From: Aedes albopictus
Lineage: Eukaryota > Arthropoda > Insecta > Diptera > Culicidae
DNA length: 64,000 nucleotides
Assembly (NCBI RefSeq): GCF_035046485.1
Contig: NC_085138.1
Span: 326,550,129-326,614,128, forward strand
Reading direction: 5' to 3'
The position numbers and the translations under genes are program-made. This document shows positions 6,301 to 57,542 of the stretch, piece by piece (position 1 is the first letter of the stretch; each line of letters starts with the position of its first letter). The notes below the pieces were generated by a model, which had not been told where the DNA came from, ran no database searches, and saw only the letters and a program-made list of their open reading frames with translations.

Positions 6301-9300
6301 AAATAAAATCATGATGTTTCTAGCACTACTTTTTTTTTCGCTCCCCATTTGAAGTTAGATTTTGTGGGGGCCCCTAAAATGTGGGGGCCCGGGGCCATGG
6401 CCCCCCTGGCCCCCCCTTAAATCCGGCTCTGATGATACTACTCCATTTGTATTGTTTCATTATGGTGGTACGAATGGACCGTACATTACTCAAATTGCTT
6501 TCAATTTACGAAAACTAGTTTTACGAAAGATATTCGTTGAGGTTTAACGAAAGAATATTCTGAGTGTGGTTCGTTCAGCTGCTAACTGTCATGCAAACTG
6601 TCGTGTGAGTATTTATTTTTTCTCTTCGAAGATTTGCTCGAAAGTCTATAAATGAATAAAGAATGCAATACTAATAGGCAACAATTTTGCAGATATTATC
6701 GCACCGCCATCTATCATAATGAATTGTCAACAGCGATGCGATGTTTTCCCATGCAGTTTTGTTGCAGGGCGATGTTTTCTGAATGTACATTGGCTGCATT
6801 CTGCAGCAACTGACAGTTCTTTGACGTCTGCCAGTTTTTTTTAAACTTAAACGTTCATTTTAGGCTCATGTGCCAACAAGCATAACGGAGCTGAATTCAG
6901 TTAATTTTTTTACAGTTTTATGTTTTTGACTTAAAAACTATGTTAGTTTTGGGAAACCGCAAAACTCGCAGTTTGGCCGAGGTTAGGGGGGCACAAAAAT
7001 ATGTGGGGAAAGGATAGGGTAATGGAGGCTTTTCGTTCACACATGACAGCAAGGTGTGGCGTATTGCTGCTGGTCAAACGTACACACCAAATTTTGTTTA
7101 CTGGTATTCAGCAAACTTTGCTGATTTTTGTTGTGCTGATTTCATTCAGCAATGCGAATTTACTGAATATCAGCAATTATTTTTCAACTTGCTGAATCAT
7201 CCAGCAATTTTGACAGTTGATCAGCAACGTTGTGCTGAAATTCAGCAAAAAAATTGCTGAAATTCAGCAATTTAATTTGCTGATTTTTTTTGTGCTGGAA
7301 GCGTTTCAAAAAATTTGGTGTGTAGATTGAACAAACAACCTGTAACGATACAAACAAACGATTTTCGAAGGGACACGAGGTGGACAAGCGGAGCAACAAG
7401 ACTGGGGTATCAAACGAAGACTTCAGCTTGTTTCATGAAGTCGTACACAAGCTTCATGTACTCAAGATCTAGTTTACCCAACACATCGATACTGTCTTCC
7501 TTTTTTGGTTTCCCTGTGCATCCCTCAGCATAAATCGGATCTGGCAATACCGTATTTGGGGCATTCGCACATAACCTGGTTGATATATTGATAGCCTGTG
7601 CCAAAGCTACACACTCAGAATATTCTTTCGTTAAACCTCAACGAATATCTTTCGTAAAACTAGTTTTCGTAAATTGAAAACAATTTGAGTATAATGTACG
7701 GTCCATTCGTACCACCATAATGAAACAATACAAAAGGAGTAGTATCATGTACGAAATCACGAATCCGACAGGCGGTCAACTTACTCATTCGTAGATTTTA
7801 GCTCCAGCTGTGTAGAATAAAACAAGACATACAAATGTCAAACGTTTTTTACTAACCATGTGTAAAAAGATAATTTTGCTTCGTAGAATGCAACAAAGTT
7901 TTGCAGTCATCACTGACGATTGATTGGATCGCAGAGAAAACAAAGCAACCTGTTTTCATGAGCATATGACGGTGCGTGTGCGAGAAGAGGAAAGGAAACA
8001 TGCTCTCGGTTGAAAGTAAAAGTTATTTATAAACAGAACCAAAGTGGAAAGCGTTCTGGTTGTTTTCGGGTGGTTTCAACAAGCGTCCACAGATGGGTGG
8101 TTAGCACTGGTAGGTATCGATCAGAAGATACGTGATTCAAAGCCTGTGATATCCAAGTGGACGAACGTGTGGTATTTTTTTTAAACATGTTTAATGTCAT
8201 TCCGACAGAAAAAAAAGACAGATAAATGTGTCGGAGCAATTTTGTACGAAAAGAACTCATGCACATTACGAAGCTTTTCGTTGCAGAAAACAACGAATGG
8301 CATTTGTAAACATGACGAGCGATTTCGTACAATGAAACAAAATATATTTTCAGTGCAGCAATTGCTATCTGTGAGCCCTATTCAATAGAAATGCGAGCCC
8401 AGACAGTAATGATTGGACATAAGTCGACACATTATCTTGATAAAATCTCGACCCATGTCCAACCCCTTGAACCACGCCGTCTTCGATATCTGTGGGAGAA
8501 TTGAATGTAGCCACCTGCCCATTTCCCCTGCATCCCATTTTTGTTGCCAACTGACCAAGGCATGCTGACGAGCAATCGAAAAAAAAATCATTAAAGGCGA
8601 TATGACGGTCATAAATATCGCCTGCATCAGTCAGTTGTTGCGGTTATCGAATTTCATTCGGTAACTGAAACGTAAACATGTTATCAAATGTCTACTGTAC
8701 TTGTTCCTTAACGAGTAAGATATAATTGGTACAAAAATGCGCTTGATTGGTTAAGTCTACACGAAATTATAGCGCTTCTATTAGAATACTTATGATATGA
8801 TTTCCGTTTATTAAATGACCATACCTAAAGATTACGTGAATCAAATTAAAATAAATTTTGAGACTTCATGACTAATATATTGGCCTTCATTTACCGTTGG
8901 GCTCGACTAAGTTGTGTCCAAAGGGGAAAAAAATGCAATTTATTGAAAGCTTTTCGAAAAGATCTAATCATTTGAATGTTTTTAATTTTGCAAATTTACT
9001 ACAACTTTTTAGAACATTTTGAAATTGTATAGAGAATAATCAATCAGCAGAGTTTTGGATAAGCCACTCAAGAGTGACCATACTCATATTACCGTAATGA
9101 AAAAAAAAAAAAAAAAAATGGCAGAACTTGGCAGCAACATTTTTGTCTTCGTATATACGACTCTAGAGTGTCTAGACCCATTGAGCGCTGATAAACCTGC
9201 ATCCAGCAGCGTGCTGTTTGCAAGTGGAAAACTCCTAGCCAACAATAGGACGTGAAGCTCAACAACGAAGCGAATGTTATTTTTAGACACAACCCGGTTC

Positions 9301-12300: not shown

Positions 12301-15300
12301 AATCCTTGGTTAAATCTTGAAAATTATTGAAAATAAACTCTTTAATGACTTGCGGCCCGCGGTCTCTTTTCAAAATTCAATTTTGGCCCGCAAAGACAGT
12401 TAGGCTGAGGATCACTGGTCTAACTGAATAAAAAGTTTTTTTTTTATTTTTCAACCTTAATTACCTACCTTACCGATCAGGCTAAGGCCGGGGTGGCCTC
12501 TGCTGTACATAGTAGCCGTCTCCATTCCACTCGGTCCATGGCTGTTTGTCTCCAGTTCCGCACAGTGCGTAGGGTCCACTGCGCACCACGTCTTCTTGTA
12601 CCGGTCAGATGACTCTCGAGAACCATTTTAGTCGGGTTTCTATCCGACATCCTGATTACGTGACCCACCCTCCCGATTTTCGCGGTATGGACGATGCACA
12701 GTGGCCGGAAGCCGGACAAAACCTCAAAAATCGACTTCAATATTTTATTTTTCTAATATTTTTCTTCCATTATAGATACTTTAACTAAGAAAACCCCAAA
12801 TTTTCAAGAGATTTGGTCGAAAATTAAGTCTTGTAGATTTTTTCAAAGTTGAAGTTTTATGCGCTACAATATTAGTATTTATTGTCTTTATTTTATGAGC
12901 TTCCTTCATGAGGTCATTGTAAAAGTTAGGAAGACTTGAATAATGTGACAATATGTTTTGTGTTTTTGGGTACAAATAACCATTACATTTCAGGGATTGT
13001 TTGGAATTCAATCAAAAAATTATTATGTTTTTACAATATGCAAACATATTGACTTTTATGAACTTTTGAAGAAAAACTTCGTATTAAAAAGATCCAGTAC
13101 TTGTTTAGGAAACATCAGAAAACGACGCCGTACCCCGGATCTGACGTGCAATTTTGACTAGTTTTTGGCTATATAGGTCACTGTTTGCGCATTTTTGCGC
13201 TAAGCGCGAAAAAAAAATTTTTTTTCTATCAGGTCACAATGGAGCCGCATGGTTGTGGAAGAAGTGATATTGTTTGAAGTTTAAATTTTATCTTCACATA
13301 GTTCAAATTGACTTCAGAATACTAACAATTTCGTGTAATTTTCATTCTTGTACGAGACTTTCACCAAGTCAGATGGTCATAAGAGGGGGGGGGGGGGTGG
13401 TATCTGAAAATGTAATAAATAATGTAATGGCCACGGCTTTGGCCTTTTTTTATTTTTTTTAAATATTATTTTATTTTTTGACAGAAAACCACAAGAAGGT
13501 GGGTGCTCCAGTTTAAAACAGTAAGCTGGAGAGGAAGGGAGTGATGACTAAGTATGAATAAGCCTTTATTTCCTTAGACACTACTCACATGTTGCTTCAC
13601 CAGATACAACTAACACTTTTAACCATCAAAATAAAAGAAAGGCAAAAACAACCGTGAAAACATGTAAAAATAACTACAAACCATTGCTCATTGATTCCCT
13701 TAAACTGGTTGTTTCTTCGATTTATCTTAATCGTTAGAATTGCTCAACAACCTTGGAAGCAATCTCTTCACGAACCTTCATCGAAGTTTCAATATATAGT
13801 GACACAAATTCGTTGACATCTACGTGTTTCTTTTCTACACGCACATCGCTACAGTTCAAAGCAACAATCATCTATAAAATATAAAAGGAATTCACTAAAC
13901 GGCGATAAACGCCACGTTAAATATTTTTCTGCGTAAACGTCGCGATCGCCAAGGCAATCTTTGAATATTTTAAAACCAATTTTATGAACCCAACATTTTA
14001 TGCTCTTTAGTAAAACCCCTTTTATTGGTTTTTTAAACTTGAAGTTTTATTGTATGCTGTGAAGAATTAGCATTAAGGTGAATATATGACGAAGCCACAA
14101 CTCGAATTTTCAAGAGCACAAATCTGAAGAACCGAATGTCGGTTTGCGCTGACAAGTTGATCGATTGGTCACCACCAGCGGGTAACCAATCGATCAACTT
14201 TTCAGTTCAAACCGACATTCGGTTCTTCAGATTTGTGCTCTCGAAAATTCGAGGTTTGGCTTCGTTATATATTCACCTTAAGTTAAAATTCACAAATGCA
14301 AAGAAATTAAAAAAAATAAATTATTGTATGTTATTCATGCAGTTTCGTTCAACACATTTCTACTGAACGACACAGATTTTGAAAATATTTGCTGGAACTC
14401 TACTGTTCATATATATGATTACCGATCTCTGAGGATCGTTTATCAAAAACTCCCTTCAATATTGCGAATATGAATTGCCAATTGTTTATAGATAGGGTTG
14501 TTTCGGTTGCTTCCACAAGTGATAGCAGGGATCGATGTACCTTAAAACCCAAACTCGGAAGAGCATATATGAAGTTGTTGAAACGAGATTGATAAAAAGC
14601 AGTTCAAATTTTACGCAGTTCACTATATTAGACTATCTGACTCCATAACGATTGAATTAATACACCTCCGTGCACCCACCGTAAAATGTCACGTGTTCTA
14701 TGGGCATTCCCTGAGAAAAGACCCCGTCTTGTCAGCCAACATTGGTGTGTATCTGAATTGATCCATTGAAAGAAAACGTAGGTAAACGATTTTTTTTTCT
14801 AATGATTTATGTATTTTTGAAGATTTTGGACCACCCTAACAGCAACAAATACACAATTTTAGTTTATTTCAATACCAATACATGATTTAAGAACCCTCAA
14901 ATAAAAAGGGTAATCAAAACCTACGTTCAGAAAGCACATCGTGATAGCTTATTATCGATTATTTTTACATGCTTGCCATTATCAGCAGATTTCAAAATTT
15001 TGAACCACCCTAATATAGTAAAATCAAAATATATGATGAGTTTCATATCAGAAATAGATTTAGGGAACTAAAATCATCATAACCTGTGAATTTTAGCAAT
15101 TTCGGTTAACATTTGAGGTTTTGTCCGACTTTTGTATGGAGGCCCGCCACTGTGCGATGGTTGGTTCTCTCAGCAGCTGATGCAGCTCGTGGTTCATTCG
15201 CCTTCTCCAAGTCCCGTCTTCCATCTGCACTCCGCCGTAGATGATACGCAACACCTTCCGTTCGAAAACTCCAAGGGCGCGTTGGTCCTCTGCACGTAGG

Positions 15301-18300
15301 GTCCATGTTTCGTGCCCATAGAGGACGACCGGTCTAATCAACGTTTTGTAGATGGTTAACTTCGTGTTACGGCGAACTTTATTCGAACGTAGAGTTCTGC
15401 GGAGTCCAAAGTAGGCACGATTTCCTGCCACAATGCGCCTCTGAATTTCTCTGCTGGTGTCGTTGTCGTCGGTCACCAGTGCGCCCAAGTACACGAATTC
15501 TTCAACCGCCTCGATTTCATCACCGTCGATATGAATTCGGGGTGGCGGGCGCGGTGATTCCTCCCTGGAGCCCTTTGCCATCATGTACTTTGTCTTCGAC
15601 ACATTAATGACTAATCCGATTCGCCTGGCTTCACTTTTTAGTCGGATGTACGTTTCCGCCATCGTCTCAAATTTACGAGCAATAATATCAATATCATCGG
15701 CGAAACCAAGCAGCTGAACGGACTTTGTGAAAATCGTCCCACTCGTGTTTATCCCCGCTCTCCTTATTACAACCTCTAACGCAATGTTAAGCAGCAAGCA
15801 CGAAAGACCATCACCTTGTCGTAACCCTCTGCGAGATTCCAAGGGACTCGAGAGTGTCCCTGGTACTCGAACTACGCACATCACTCGATCCATCGTCGCC
15901 TTGATTAATCGTATCAGTTTATCCGGGAATCCGTATTCGTGCATAATCTGCCATAGCTGGTCTCGATCGATTGTATCATACGCTGATTTGAAATCGATGA
16001 ACAAGTGATGTGTGGGCACGTCGTATTCGCGTCATTTCTACAACACCTGGCGGATGGCGAACATCTGCTCCGTTGTAACACGTTCACCCATGAATCCAGC
16101 CTGATATTGTCCCACGAATTCTCTTGTAATCGGTGATAAACTGTGGCATAAAATTTGAGGGAGTACCTTGTAGGTAGCGCTCAGTAGTGTGATCGCGCGA
16201 TAATTCCCGCAATCCAACTTGTTGCCCTTTTCCTTTTCCTCCTCCCAAATCTTGGTAATGACCCAGTGTAGTGCTCTCACCAGTGCTTCTCCACCGTATT
16301 TTAGAAGCTCGCTAGGTAGTTGATGTGCTCCAGCGGCTTCATTGTTTTTCAACCGGCCAACATCGTCCTCAGTCTCTTGGAGGTCAGGAGCCGGAAGTCT
16401 TTCGTCCTGTGTACTTACTCCTAGATCTGTTTCCATGCCAACTTCGGTACTTGCAACGTCGCTCGTGAGAATATTCCCGTGATTATCTCGGCACATGTCG
16501 GCTTGTGGCACAAAGCCTCTGCGCGAGCGATGCAGCTTCTCGTAGAACTTTTGTGTGTCCTAAGCGCGGTACAGCTCTTCCATAGCTTCGCGATCTTGTT
16601 CTTCCTGTTAGCGCTTCTTCATCCGGAAGACTGAGTTCTGCCTGTTCCGCGCCTGTTTGTAACGTGCCTCATTCGCTCTCGTACGGTGTTGCAGCATTCT
16701 CGCTCATGCTGCATTCTTCTCGTTTTTCAACTGTTCACATTCGCCGTCTGGTAACGACTGGTACGTTTTTGTGATTCGGAGTCGCGAAGCCTTGTGCTGT
16801 TGCCGAGGTACTACCTATGGCGGATCGGATGTCCCTCCAGCCATCTTCAAGCGTAGCTGCGCCAAGCTGCTCTTCCGTTGGTAGCGCCACATTCTAACTG
16901 CTCCGCGTAATCTTGAGCAACTTCTACGTTATGTAACTGCTCGATGGTGAGCCGCGGTGTTCGACTTCGACGCTTGGTAATAACTGTCGAAAGTTTTGAG
17001 CACATGCATACAACGACTATATTCTTCAACCATTTAACCTAATTTAGGTACAGCCCTTTTGTCCACTAGGGCACTGCGTGAGCGATTCCAATTGGCAGCT
17101 GCACTTACACTTTATACAGCGCCTAAATGTATTCTATTCTAATTCTACTATATCGAACTGGTTGCCTTTACGCTGCTGTCACTTTCTATCCTGCCAATTG
17201 TAGAATGATGAGCACGAGGATGTTAATGTGTGGCTCTCTTGTTCCTTTTCCAATCCGATCGAGGGTTCATTACGAGTTGCCATTCGCCGATGTCCAAGTA
17301 CATACCTGGGTCTGTTTGAGCCATGGGCTCAAAAGATGGTCAGTGACAGCTGCTCTCGGTGAAAAGAGCAACTGAAGAAAGTGCCGGGGCTGGGATCGAA
17401 CCCATGACCATCTACTTATGAAGCAAACGTGTAACCGCTTGCGCCTCGGGCCCCAGGCTATAAAAAAGGCTGAATTAGATCGAAAGAGAGTGCAGTGCAT
17501 GCACCCATAAAGGAAAAGATTATTTTTGGAAATAGATAGGCATTCTTGAAGTGAGTGGTAATAAACTGGTAGTTATTTTTGTATTCTTTCTGAGTAATTA
17601 TCATCTCTTACATCCATTCAGAAGAATTGTCTTAAATCTATTCGGATTTTAATGTTACGATTGTATGATCATTGTACTCAAATACAACTAGAGAAAATTA
17701 TCAGATGTTGGAGACCTACACTGAAGTTTTTTTTATGAACAACACTTCCAATTTTTTTTTTGTGAAATCATTTATTTTATTAGAACTTGGCGATCAATAA
17801 GAAATTTATTTGAAAATTTAAATTGTGGGACGCCATGGGCATTAACGGGTTTCATCAGCTAGATTTTTCGTTTTAGTCTCCCACCTTGGCATAGTTTCAT
17901 AGTGTCGTCCACAGCTGCTGCTCCACATAGATCTTAGTAACTGGACCATTAGCAGAACAAGCAATTAATAAGCTGCCTTCGAGTCGCCCCGCACAGAGAG
18001 AAACGCTCGCGAGACAATTTCTCACACTCCACAAAGCTTAAAAAAAAATCAACCACATCTGAGCCCATTGACTGTGGGAAACAATTGAACCCGGAAACCC
18101 ACAAGGATTCCACTGTTGAATCGCCAACTAACTATCAATACGGTGAAAAATACAAGAGTCAAATAAAGATGCCTTCCCGATCAGAAAGGCATAACAAAAT
18201 TATAACCGATTAAGTTATTTATTTCAAAGATTTTTCATAACAGTATGAGTTATAAAATTCGCCGGTTAGGTGTTAAAATAACAAAAATTATAACTAAAAT

Positions 18301-48683: not shown

Positions 48684-48980
48684 ATGTCGAGCGACGACAC
48701 AAAACTACCACCGTCGTCGTCGTTTCCTGGAAACGCTTTCGCAAGTTGTGGCGCTCCACCACTACTGGCGGAATGTTGCCAACCGCGAAGCGAAGAAAGT
48801 CATATCCTGTCTATGTACAAAGACGCGACCATCTTGATTACCGGTGGAACGGGGTTTCTCGGAAAAATACTGCTCGAAAAGGTGCTTCGTTGCTTGGATG
48901 TGAAGAAAGTATTCCTGCTGATCCGCCGGAAGGACGATATGAGCGCCCAGGAGCGGCTGGTGAAGCTGCTGCAGGATACG
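48684..48980 (+). CDS. Fatty acyl-CoA reductase, first coding exon (partial)
   Basis: ATG at 48684 is preceded in frame by TAG TAG, fixing the start; the donor GTAGGT follows at 48981 after exactly 99 codons. After a 44-residue polar leader comes the Rossmann dinucleotide-binding start of the FAR (male-sterility/NAD_binding_4) family: MYKDATILITGGTGFLGKIL (the GxxGxxG motif TGGTGFLG at 53-60), then KVLRCLDVKKVFLLIRRK and AQERLVKLLQD. FARs reduce fatty acyl-CoA to fatty alcohol with NADPH at ER or peroxisomal membranes, feeding wax, pheromone and ether-lipid synthesis. The catalytic YxxxK and the C-terminal membrane part are in later exons outside the window. Confidence 0.9.
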
Positions 48981-49859
48981 GTAGGTACTAGACTAGGTGC
49001 TGCTGTTGGCTCTGGCTGCGATGCTGTCGTGGCTTTATTGGCATGGCACCGTTGGTGGTCTTCCATGTTGTGCTCATCGTGTGCGTTATGGTGCTGGTTG
49101 GTGTCGAAAAGTTTGAATCTACGTGATGGGTTGGAATTTGTGTGAAGGAAGAGAACTATTTGGACGGTGGATGCCAAAAGCTTTTGAATTATGGATGGAT
49201 AAAAGCGATGAATGTCGAATATATTGGTGCGCTACTGCAATAGTTAGTTATGATCCCCGCGGGATAGAAAGAATGAAGGAAATGGCAGTAAGATGGAATT
49301 TAAATGGGGAAAACTCAATTTATTTGGAGGAACGTGCTGTTGCCGCTGTGAGTATTGCTCAGGATTTTTTGTTCAACGTAGAATGAGATGAACATGCTTC
49401 TTAGACATGAAAGGAACCGCACTCGTTTATGTTCAGAATTTTAAATTCCTTGTACGATCAACGATTATCCTAATAACTAGGCCAGATATCGTCAATATGT
49501 TTCAACGAAGAGCAATTTTCGGATGTCTTTGAAGTTTTCAATTCTACACGTACTCACAAGAATTGCAACCTTCTAACACTGTGTTTTACTGAGTTACAAC
49601 AGTAGACATGTCTTGCCTGCTCTGCATGGGGCCATCCATAAACCACGTGGTCGTGATGGGGTTGGGGTAGGGGGTTGTTCGGGCAAAGACCATGGTCCAT
49701 ACACATATTTAAATTATTTTGTATGAACGATAGACCGGGTGGGGGGGGGGGGGGGGGTGGTGGATACGGAGTCTCCCAAAAAATGACCACAGCCACAGTA
49801 CTGGTATGCATATGCCAGATTTACTGATATTTCTGGAACACACTTGATTACTGTACCTT
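48981..49859 (+). other. Start of FAR intron 1
   Basis: Begins with the donor GTAGGT. An 86-codon frame at 49126-49386 has no family resemblance and is not called. A long G run with one break lies at about 49736-49760. The rest of the window is probably the same intron. Confidence 0.5.
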
Positions 49860-50028: not shown

Positions 50029-50598
50029 ACCTTACCGGTCAGACTGAGACCTGAGAGTTCTCTGTTGTACGTAGGAGTCTACTCGGTCTATGACTGTGTG
50101 TCCCAAGTTCCGCACTCTGCGAAGGGTCCGTAAATCGTCCTTCACTTGATCGACCCACCCAGCTCGATGCGCACCACGTCTTCTTGAGCCGGTCGGATGA
50201 CTCTCGAGAACCATTTTAGTCGGGCTGCTATCCGACATCCTGATTACGTGACCCGCCCACCGTAGCCTCCCGATTTTCGCGGTGTGCACGATGGTTGATT
50301 TTCTCAGCAGCTGATGTAGCTCGTGGTTCATTCGCCTTCTCTAAGTCCCGTATTCCATCTGCACTCCGCCGTAGATGCTACGCAACAGCTTTCGTTCGAA
50401 AACTCCAAGGGCGCGTTGGTCCTCAGCACGTAGGGTCCATGCTTCGTGCCCATAGAGGACTACCGGTCTAATCAGAGTTTTGTAGATGGTTAACTTCGTG
50501 TGACGACGAACTTCGTTCGATCGTAGAGTTCATCGGAGTTCAAAATAAGCTCGATTTCCTCCCACAATGCGTCTCTGAATTTCACTGCTGGTGTCGTT
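50029..50598 (-). pseudogene. RTE-clade LINE fragment, 3' part
   Basis: Minus strand: thumb and C-terminus, ALGVFERKLLRSIYGGVQM, an in-frame TAG after EYGT, then MNHELHQLLRKSTIVHTAKI and KMVLESHPTGSRRRGA, ending TLRSQSDR. Same family as the 12.5-17 kb copy. It continues at 51051-51195 on the other side of an inserted SINE. Confidence 0.85.
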
Positions 50599-52760: not shown

Positions 52761-52974
52761 CACATGAATAGACAAGAGGCTGAAAGCCATCATGATCAAC
52801 ACAAACGTGGCTTGGTGATGGAAGTGATACAGCCGCCACACTGCACAATGGGCCCAGAGCCGTATTTGCGAAGACAAAACTGTTTATGCTTCATCCTTAA
52901 GTTTTTAGACACATATTGTGTTTTAGAAAGTTTATTTTCAATTGTTGACCCTCTTCCCTATTATTGTTATGTTA

Positions 52975-53215
52975 GGGTGGTTCGTCTGGTTAAACTGATT
53001 CAAAAATCTGCTTTCTAATAATTTTATTTACGATGCCATGATGGATGGTGATGGATCGTTTAATTAGAAATTCTACCAATAAACGGCAAATTCTAAATTT
53101 CATATAACTCAGGACTCTCACCACTTAGAAAGTTGGTGTCTTCGACAACATTGTTAAGTGAGTCAAGGGCTTACAGTTAATGGTCCACTAGGCGGCGCTA
53201 GTTACACATTTGCAA
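52975..53215 (+). repeat. Solitary copy of the ~147-bp repeat unit and its flank
   Basis: TAGAAAGTTGGTGTCTTCGA, then AGGGCTTACAGTTAATGG and GGCGGCGCTAG match the array units at 40.5-41.7 kb. The 52975-53050 part matches 3970-4060. Confidence 0.55.
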
Positions 53216-53568
53216 AATCATTCAAATGATTAATATTTTTTCGTGAAGTAATAAACAAGTCAATAATTAGTCAAGTCAAAGGTTTTTCAAAGAGCTATGT
53301 ATTAGTCATAATTGTGCAATGTCGCATTTCATTCGGTTCACTTGATCCAGAGATGTAGCAATTAAACGAAGAACTAGTTTTTGACTTCCGTTTATCAAAT
53401 TACTGTACCGTAGGACTAAACGAACCGAATTAAATTAAATTTTGAAAGTTTGTGACTAATGTATTGGTCTTCATGTATCGTTGGACTCGACTAAAATATG
53501 ACCAAAGGCAAAAAAGTTGCAATTTATTGAAAACTTTTCGAAAAGTTCTAATGATTCGAATGTTTTAT

Positions 53569-53609
53569 CCAAGGGCTGAAAGTCTCTTGAATAAATCAAT
53601 CAAATCAAT
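53569..53609 (+). mobile_element. 41-bp retroposed tail insert
   Basis: CCAAGGGCTGAAAGTCTC followed by AATAAATCAATCAAATCAAT. Perfect 12-bp duplication CGAATGTTTTAT at 53557-53568 and 53610-53621. It keeps only the 3' half of the conserved hairpin plus the TCAA-type tail. Confidence 0.82.
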
Positions 53610-53660
53610 CGAATGTTTTATTTTTGAAAATTTGCTCTAACTTTGTAAGACATTCTGATA

Positions 53661-54254
53661 CACTCAAACCTCCATTTAGGTAGGATCCATTTAGGTAAAA
53701 TCTATTTAGGTCCCTCCATTTAGGTAACGTTACCTAAATAGAATTTGGTTGTGTTCAGAACAGTTGGAGTACTTAAGATTGATGACGTCATACCCGACAT
53801 TAACCTATCATTCACCTGTTTTTATTTTGGCCTCCAAACCCAACATAGACCCAACAGTTGTTCGATGTTGGTCCAACAGTGGCCCAACATACGATAAAAA
53901 TTTACCCGACATTGACCCGACATTCAACAATTTTTCAGTCTGGCGGAATTTTTCAGGGTTTTTTGTGTTCCGTGCCCAGCTAGTCATTTGCATGACAATT
54001 CTCACTTGAGACCCTCCAAAACCCCCTAAAACGCCCCTGAAGCCCCTCCCCTACATAAACTCCCTTATAAGTTCTCTGAAACTCCGCATGACCATCTTTA
54101 AATCTCCTATTCGAGTCACTCTCCCTAGTTAAATTTCTTTGCAACCTTGTACTCCATTTAGGTAATGAACTGAATCCATTTAGGTAATGATTCCATTTAG
54201 GTAAAAATTCTATTTAGGCAGTCCCGACCCATTACCTAAATGGAGGTTTTGGTG
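53661..54254. mobile_element. TA-flanked element with CCATTTAGGTA repeats, 594 bp
   Basis: Ends CACTCAAACCTCCATTTAGG and complement of CCTAAATGGAGGTTTTGGTG; TA flanks at 53659-53660 and 54255-54256. CATTTAGGTA recurs about eight times near the two ends. Non-coding. Confidence 0.75.
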
Positions 54255-55116
54255 TATTGTATAGAGAATAATTAATCAGCAGATTTTTGGATAAGCCACA
54301 CTTGATTGACCGTAATCATTTCACAATAATGAAAAAAAAAAGAAATGACAGAACCTGGCAGAAACATTTTTGTCTTCGTAAATACGACTCTAGACCCATT
54401 GTGCACTGAAAAGCCCGCATCCAGCAGGTTGCTGTTTGCAAGTGGAAAATTCCATGTAGACAATAGGACGCGAAGCTCAGCAGCGAAGCGAAAGTTATTT
54501 TTAGACGCAACCCGGTTCAACTTCTCGGGTTTGAATGGAGGTGTTTGTGTGTAGTGGTATGGAAGCTATGGAACCGTGTAGCGCATCTTAATACAACGAA
54601 TGGATTATGATTTATCTCATTTTCTGTACGTTTTTAATACATAAATTGGTAGAAAAGGCATATCTCAATTTTTGGTAGCTTTTCTTGTTTTGCGTGTACC
54701 GGTTCTCCCAAATGTGCGTCTGAGACTTTGTGCTGACAAACAGTTAATTAGGTTATTGAAAAAGCCGCGATTTGGTGTGTCGCATGCACAGGTTTGGGTC
54801 ACTTTTATATTTTACCACTTATGACGAGACACCCTACTGAGACTATTCTCTTGCTAACCGTTCATCAGGTTACCGAATAAATCATTTGACATGACACATG
54901 TATTGATACCCTTTTACATTTTATATTTCCGGCGGGACAGACGGAATCGGTTCCGTAGTGCAGATCTGAGACTTTTGTCTTGTCGATTGTTCATCATGTT
55001 ACCTAAAAGCCTTGATTTATGGTGTCGCATGCATGGGTTTGGTTCACTTTCAGATTTAGCCACTTCCGTCGGGACACCCGAAACCGGTTCTGGAAAACTA
55101 TTGATAGTATCTAATA

Positions 55117-56495: not shown

Positions 56496-57542
56496 ACGTT
56501 CATAAGGTTATCAAAAAAGCCGCGCTTTGCTGTGTCGCATGCATAGGTTTGGTTCTCTTTTATATTTGACCACTGCCGTTGGGACCACCCGGAACCGGTT
56601 CCGGAACACCACCAGTTAAGGTGTGTTCTGATACTGTTTTCCTGCTAACCGTTCATCAGGTTATCGAAAATGCCGCTGTTTGATGTGTCGCATGCATAGG
56701 TTTGGTTCTCTTTAATATTTGACCACTTCCGGCGGGACATCCGGAACCGGTTCTGTAACACTTCCGGTTTAGATATGGTCTGATACTATTTCCCTGCTAA
56801 CCATTCATCATGTTACCGAAAATGCCGCTGTTTGATGTGTCGTATGAATGAGTTATGGTCAATTTTATATTTGGCCACTTCCGGCGGGACACCCAGAACC
56901 GGTTCCGGAACGCTACCACTTAGATATGGTCTGATGCTGTTTTCCTGCTAACCGTTGATCAGGTTATCGAAAATGCCGCTGTTTGATGTGGCACATGCAT
57001 GGGTTTGGTTCTCTTTTATATTTGACCACTTCCAGCGGCACATCCGGAACCGGTTCCAGAACACTACCAGTTCAGATATGGTCTGATACTATTTTCCAGC
57101 TAACTTTTCATCAGGTTAACGAAAATTCCGCTGTTTGATGTGTCGCATGCATAGGTTTGGTTCTCGTTTATATTTGGCCACTTACGGCGGGACATCCGGA
57201 ACCAGTTCTGGAACACTACTGGTTCAGATATGGTCTGATACTATTTCCCTGCTAACCGTTCATCAGGTTACTGAAAATGCCGCTGTTTGATGTGTCGCAT
57301 GAATGAGTTATGTTGAATTTTATATTTGGCCACTTCCGGCAGGACACCCAGAACCGGTTCCGGAACACTACCAGTTCAGATATGGTCTGATGCTGTTTTC
57401 CTGCTAATCGTTCATCAAGTTATCAAAAATGCCGCTGATTGATGTGTCGCATGCATGGATTTGGTTCTCTTTTATATTTGGCCACTTCCGGCGGGACATC
57501 CGGAACCGATTCCGAAACACTACCGGTTCAGATATGGTCTGA

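Follow-up and report, generated by a model that had tools for sequence, protein, structure and literature searches.

A Transib-type transposon family of Aedes albopictus with fixed unequal ends spaced at 12 and 23 bp

The 12/23 rule orders the assembly of antigen receptor genes. The recombinase of these genes descends from transposons of the Transib kind, and transposon ends bear on where the rule came from; most Transibs and RAG-like transposons have been reported with equal ends or with an asymmetry that is unrelated. A transposon of the mosquito Aedes albopictus, here e1, raises this question at a single locus, as its two ends read as a 12-RSS and a 23-RSS; it must be asked whether the asymmetry is a property of a family or of one copy, and what it implies for the pairing of transposon ends. 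e1 occupies positions 12697-15154 of the 64,000 nucleotide stretch of DNA that was analysed (the window), with CGATG directly on either side (12692-12696 and 15155-15159). The left or short end, read on the forward strand, consists of the heptamer CACAGTG (12697-12703), a 12-bp spacer (12704-12715) and the nonamer-like ACAAAACCT (12716-12724), which agrees with ACAAAAACC at 7 of 9 positions. The right or long end, read on the reverse strand, has the same heptamer (15148-15154) and the same nonamer-like ACAAAACCT (15116-15124), separated in e1 and in its sibling copies by a 23-bp spacer (15125-15147). On recomputation the element's coordinates, both heptamers, the two spacers, the 7/9 nonamers and the CGATG duplication were all as given in a preliminary description of the window.

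The two ends of e1 match at 29 of 31 positions with one 11-bp gap opened, as against 20 of 31 ungapped. The additional 11 bp, CCTCCATACAA (15132-15142, reverse strand), form a module of the long end only, and a detail absent from the first reading is that this module creates a second nonamer-like motif, ACAAAAGTC (15127-15135, reverse strand; 7/9), at 12-bp spacing from the long-end heptamer; the right end can thus be read both as a 12 and as a 23. Nonamer matches of 7/9 occur at ~0.3% of positions window-wide and at 0.4-0.7% within e1. The exact consensus heptamer and the 12- and 23-bp spacers are shared with the 12-RSS and 23-RSS of V(D)J recombination, with the nonamer of e1 at 7/9; unlike V(D)J signals, the ends of e1 are those of an insect transposon and flank no antigen receptor gene.

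e1 is inserted in a non-LTR retrotransposon whose reverse transcriptase is recognised at 15160-16019 on the reverse strand (RVT_1, E 1.3e-18) and which is called RTE-like here after the clade label of the preliminary description. That description placed an empty target site near 50290 in a related retrotransposon copy, and a single CGATG is indeed present there at 50289-50293; the joined flanks of e1 align across it over 431 columns with 89.8% identity. Chance origin of the end pair is ruled out by simulation: the whole window was scanned for CACNNTG...CANNGTG pairs with 150-8000 bp between them and a perfect 5-bp target-site duplication (TSD), and two such pairs were found, with end-alignment scores of 21 for e1 and 33 for an element at 52844-54403, while 100 first-order Markov simulations gave a mean of 0.42 pairs, a top score of 14 and in no case the same CACARTG at both ends.

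A search of the genome (1.344 Gb, 1494 contigs) with e1 gave 90 matches, with 40 of 4480 first-look candidates scored, and these resolve into e1 and at least 39 further copies. Within the stretches examined, the 39 further copies hold a left end in 38 cases (all except L012), a right end in 33 (all except L019, L024, L030, L043, L045 and L050) and both ends in 32. With e1 included, the nonamer stands at 12 bp in 39/39 left ends and at 23 bp in 34/34 right ends examined (38/38 and 33/33 when e1 is excluded), and the interval from heptamer to nonamer is free of insertions and deletions in every end; a small deletion in L031 lies just internal to the left nonamer. Heptamer and nonamer together are letter-perfect in 37/39 left and 29/34 right ends, the rest differing by substitutions only, and the heptamer itself has no mismatch among the left ends and two single substitutions among the right ends. 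The second motif of the long end is exact, together with the heptamer, in 31/34 right ends. Among the 33 complete copies, identity to the majority consensus ranges from 93 to 98%, and the longest stop-to-stop frames reach 70-117 aa. It was asked at the outset whether the 12/23 asymmetry is fixed in the family, and in the copies examined it is.

The TSDs of the family are equally regular: they are identical over 5 bp in 32/32 complete sibling copies and extend to 6 bp in none. With e1 added, their consensus is CRNYG, with C at position 1 in 32/33 and G at position 5 in 31/33. The family thus has the 5-bp GC-rich duplication and the CAC-starting ends with an RSS-like heptamer by which the Transib superfamily is recognised, and one spacer of 12 (+/-1) and one of 23 (+/-1) bp, fixed in the copies examined, as is characteristic of asymmetric 12/23 Transibs. 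The Transib-like reading that was first proposed for e1 is supported by these fixed ends and identical duplications.

An 11-bp loss from one end of e1 alone, in a family otherwise symmetric, would explain the 11-bp gap between ends that match at 29/31, and such indels do happen, as a 9-bp spacer insertion in a decayed relative of the window's other Transib-like element attests, but its probability is next to nil and it is refuted by the end counts, with equal spacers, foreseen as a possible majority state, in none of the 39 left or 34 right ends and with the 11-bp module present in 0/39 left ends and unchanged in 33/34 right ends, the last of which (L037) carries one substitution. Assignment of e1 to a different superfamily, one that has GCACAGTG...CACTGTGC ends and duplicates 3 bp, is very improbable. 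For a single copy such a reading is feasible, since the duplications so regularly start with C and end with G; however, CGGCC, CGTCC and TGTTG are TSDs whose two sides agree in all 5 bp but which do not fit the C...G frame on which the reading depends. The preliminary description had named a 3-bp duplication with such ends as a case against itself, and this fails on the 32 complete copies with identical 5-bp TSDs. The long end of e1 moreover resembles that of a family with an HzTransib-matching transposase, as set out below. A transposase of another superfamily, the remaining case that the preliminary description named against itself, is answered indirectly, through this family with its similar asymmetric ends.

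No transposase was recognised in e1 itself, nor a gene of any other kind. Its six frames, with stops rendered as X, gave no RAG1 or Transib match against Pfam (top unrelated match E 0.033) or against solved structures (top unrelated match E 0.062), and a decayed transposase within e1 was rejected on this basis. e1 is consequently classed as a complete non-autonomous element of Transib type (12697-15154) by its ends and duplications only. It contains a nested fold-back MITE (14073-14281) that has arms of ~101 bp and carries TTAA at its termini, and that is present also in L012; many sibling matches break near query position 1365-1386 and restart near 1587-1630, so these siblings seem to be without it.

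The transposase was sought elsewhere in the genome. The Pfam RAG1 profile (PF12940) gave one sub-threshold match over the mosquito's own genome, which led to a broken Transib gene at L052, whose transposase pieces match HzTransib with E 6.5e-18; L052 has no similarity to e1 or to the second element of the window and no convincing end pair. A protein search with the in-frame pieces of L052 returned 60 relatives, one of them, P0132, named for A. albopictus. The broken gene spans 1851-5140 of L052, with 49% identity to P0132 over its later portion. When P0129, the longest among the ten best relatives, was compared with the genome, at least 93 matches were obtained (64 of 312 candidates scored), which group into at least 39 transposase places, and 14 of these (L052-L065) were examined. 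The autonomous partner that was expected to lie between ends like those of e1 did not emerge, e1's ends being found on none of the 14; at L057 and L058 a convincing end pair was not found. Beyond the mosquito, end patterns gave two matches in viral contigs (L001 and L002, IMG/VR; 501 bases of each were inspected, with one shared GC-rich stretch unlike e1), no match in further end-pattern searches of viral contigs, and one match in bacterial genomes (L003, titled an alphaproteobacterial MAG); none of these led further.

Four of the transposase loci, L053-L056, belong to one family, with pieces 95-97% identical and with nested repeats in L055. Short ends of the form CACTATG-13-CCAAAAATC (7/9) are found at the 3/3 loci that hold one (L053, L054 and L055), and long ends of the form CACTATG-24-CCAAAAATA (6/9) at 2/2 (L055 and L056). 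The 13/24 reading hence rests on three short and two long ends, with the pair in L055 only (TSD CAACC), as L053 and L054 yield the short end only and L056 the long end only. The transposase piece of L055 matches HzTransib with E 1e-27 and RAG1L weakly (0.083). The nonamer reading is weaker in this family than in e1, and a further 7/9 match, CGAAAAACC, lies at 21 bp in its short end.

The likeness of the two families is seen mainly in their long ends. Aligned to each other with one gap, the long and short ends of the 13/24 family again agree best when that gap is 11 bp (25/33; 0/1000 tail shuffles as good). The 13/24 long end matches the e1 long end at 24/39 positions ungapped, with 0-1 of 1000 tail shuffles aligning as well, and CCATACAA stands at the same place in both; the extra nonamer at 12 bp of the e1 long end is not conserved in the 13/24 long end (4/9). 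The likeness of the two short ends is weaker (13-16 of 1000 shuffles), and the 13/24 long end also resembles the e1 short end (5 of 1000 shuffles). To judge from these alignments, an 11-bp asymmetry, equal to one extra helical turn, is common to the e1 family and the diverged 13/24 family of the same genome.

Symmetric Transibs are present alongside. L059-L062 and L064 carry near-identical CACAATG-23-ACAAAATTA on both sides, a 23/23 arrangement, with perfect 5-bp TSDs (CAATC, CATTG, CAATG, CAGTG and CAATG), and L063 shows one end of this family only. The second Transib-like element of the window (52844-54403) is likewise symmetric, with CACAATG-23-ACAAAA(C/A)TG on both sides and TSD CACTG; its ends match those of the 23/23 family at 28 and 26 of 39 positions (0/1000 shuffles), and over 43 bp its left end shares 74% identity with those of this transposase-bearing family. 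Its own six frames gave no transposase against Pfam (top unrelated match E 0.34). With CACAATG, ACAAAA at 23 bp and a 5-bp TSD, these elements are of the same general build as e1, unlike which they have two long ends. The 13/24 long end gives a gapped score of 13.5 against the 23/23 family, as compared with 14.1 against e1, but only 15/39 ungapped, and the e1 long end is not notably similar to the 23/23 family (18/39; 292 of 1000 shuffles). L065 (682-4968) is a Transib with an uninterrupted transposase frame of 631 aa; it has symmetric CACAGTG/CACGGTG ends and TSD CGATG, and its ends hold no nonamer-like motif, with at most 3/9 at 11-13 and 22-24 bp. The symmetric families of the same genome show that unequal ends are an option for Transibs and not a need.

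e1 is probably a copy of a non-autonomous, cut-and-paste family of Transib type, whose short and long ends would be paired by a Transib transposase supplied in trans. That elements with a 12 and a 23 end have moved is shown by the 32 complete insertions besides e1, each with a perfect TSD. The family has spread with a short end made of heptamer, 12 bp and nonamer-like motif, and a long end made of the same with the 11-bp module added to give 23; a transposase acting in trans, which may come from the 13/24 lineage, would pair one short with one long end. This would set the two sites for its nonamer-binding domain a helical turn from each other, in the same rotational register. HzTransib and RAG are known to nick 5' of CAC, turn the flanking DNA into a hairpin and insert at cuts staggered by 5 bp, and by analogy e1 would be mobilised in the same manner.

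As the two ends are inherited together, they can be fixed by descent; fixation therefore shows that a 12 and 23 pair can transpose, and a requirement for that pair does not follow. A homogeneous family would have fixed ends under neutrality as well, so that obligatory pairing of a short with a long end by one transposase dimer is inferred. An alternative, to which we give somewhat less than an even chance, is that the family is a real one of Transib type with fixed unequal ends in which the asymmetry is passive, the 11-bp module being neutral baggage carried along by descent. The transposase would then read mainly the heptamer and the bases adjacent to it, or would utilize the 12-bp motif at both ends, which would make the element functionally 12/12. 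Such passivity is consistent with the presence of the motif ACAAAAGTC at 12-bp spacing on the long side and its conservation there, with the homogeneity of the copies, and with the coexistence in the genome of symmetric 23/23 Transibs and of one Transib that has no nonamer-like motif. It also agrees with a proposal, taken from part of PMC7204232, that in invertebrate RAG-like complexes recognition depends on the outermost 15-17 bp, with rather little sensitivity to asymmetry. However, the 11-bp difference and CCATACAA are common to a diverged family whose long ends otherwise agree with those of e1 at only 24/39, which together with the similar Anopheles Transibs described in sections of PMC8355894 suggests a longer retention of the asymmetry; and ProtoRAG prefers its unequal end pair, according to the portion of PMC8289069 available.

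Of the known systems, the closest to the trans-mobilised e1 family favoured here are Transib5 of D. melanogaster and Transib2, N1, N2 and N3 of An. gambiae, for which 12/23 asymmetric ends are given in the text seen of PMC8355894 (after Kapitonov and Jurka 2005), where a hypothesis is built on these ends. By that partial account they share with e1 the heptamer, the nonamer-like motif, the 12 and 23 (+/-1) spacers and the 5-bp TSD; e1 provides another mosquito family, with the asymmetry counted copy by copy. The e1 family could be orthologous to An. gambiae TransibN1-N3. Extracts of PMC8289069 describe most Transib families as symmetric and a GC bias of TSDs as common to Transib and RAG, and an excerpt of PMC6941560 notes that spacers vary. 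HzTransib of Helicoverpa zea (structures 6pqn and others), which is matched by transposase pieces of two families of this genome (in L051 with E 6.5e-18 and in L055 with 1e-27), has symmetric ends with little or no nonamer similarity in the same extracts of PMC8289069, unlike e1. ProtoRAG of amphioxus resembles e1 in its unequal 5' and 3' ends and 5-bp TSD; it differs in its 27/31 bp, its RAG1L and RAG2L proteins and its lack of an RSS-type nonamer, as far as the relevant parts of PMC8289069 and PMC8355894 go.

The 12/23 asymmetry is therefore of a kind already known in Transibs, on the partial evidence of PMC8355894. A literature search confined to open-licence papers found no description of the A. 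albopictus e1 family, and as far as searched the new points are the copy-by-copy fixation, the long end with two motifs, and the 11-bp difference shared with a transposase-bearing family beside symmetric relatives. A bolder reading, which we consider rather unlikely, is that a 12/23-type pairing rule independent of RAG2 works in a mosquito Transib lineage that comprises the e1 and 13/24 families, that one of the two ends arose from the other by gain or loss of a module of one helical turn, and that the double-motif long end of e1 is an intermediate. If that were true, nonamer-like motifs at both 12 and 23 bp would mark the transitional stage by which unequal ends could evolve with function retained throughout. 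An exact-heptamer 12/23 family, a transposase-bearing 13/24 family and symmetric families form a natural comparison set within one genome, with which it can be asked biochemically whether preference for an unequal pair predates RAG2.

Several other features of the window were observed. An apparent MITE, with CCATTTAGGTA repeats, is nested within the second Transib-like element at ~53660-54257. Positions 8722-9177 hold the degraded relative of that element, with the same right end and right flank, the 9-bp spacer insertion and the heptamer CTCAATG, and repeats of ~75-130 bp at 56498-57501 are akin to the right flank of the second element. An open reading frame at 48684-49145 resembles, as judged by eye, part of a fatty-acyl-CoA reductase.
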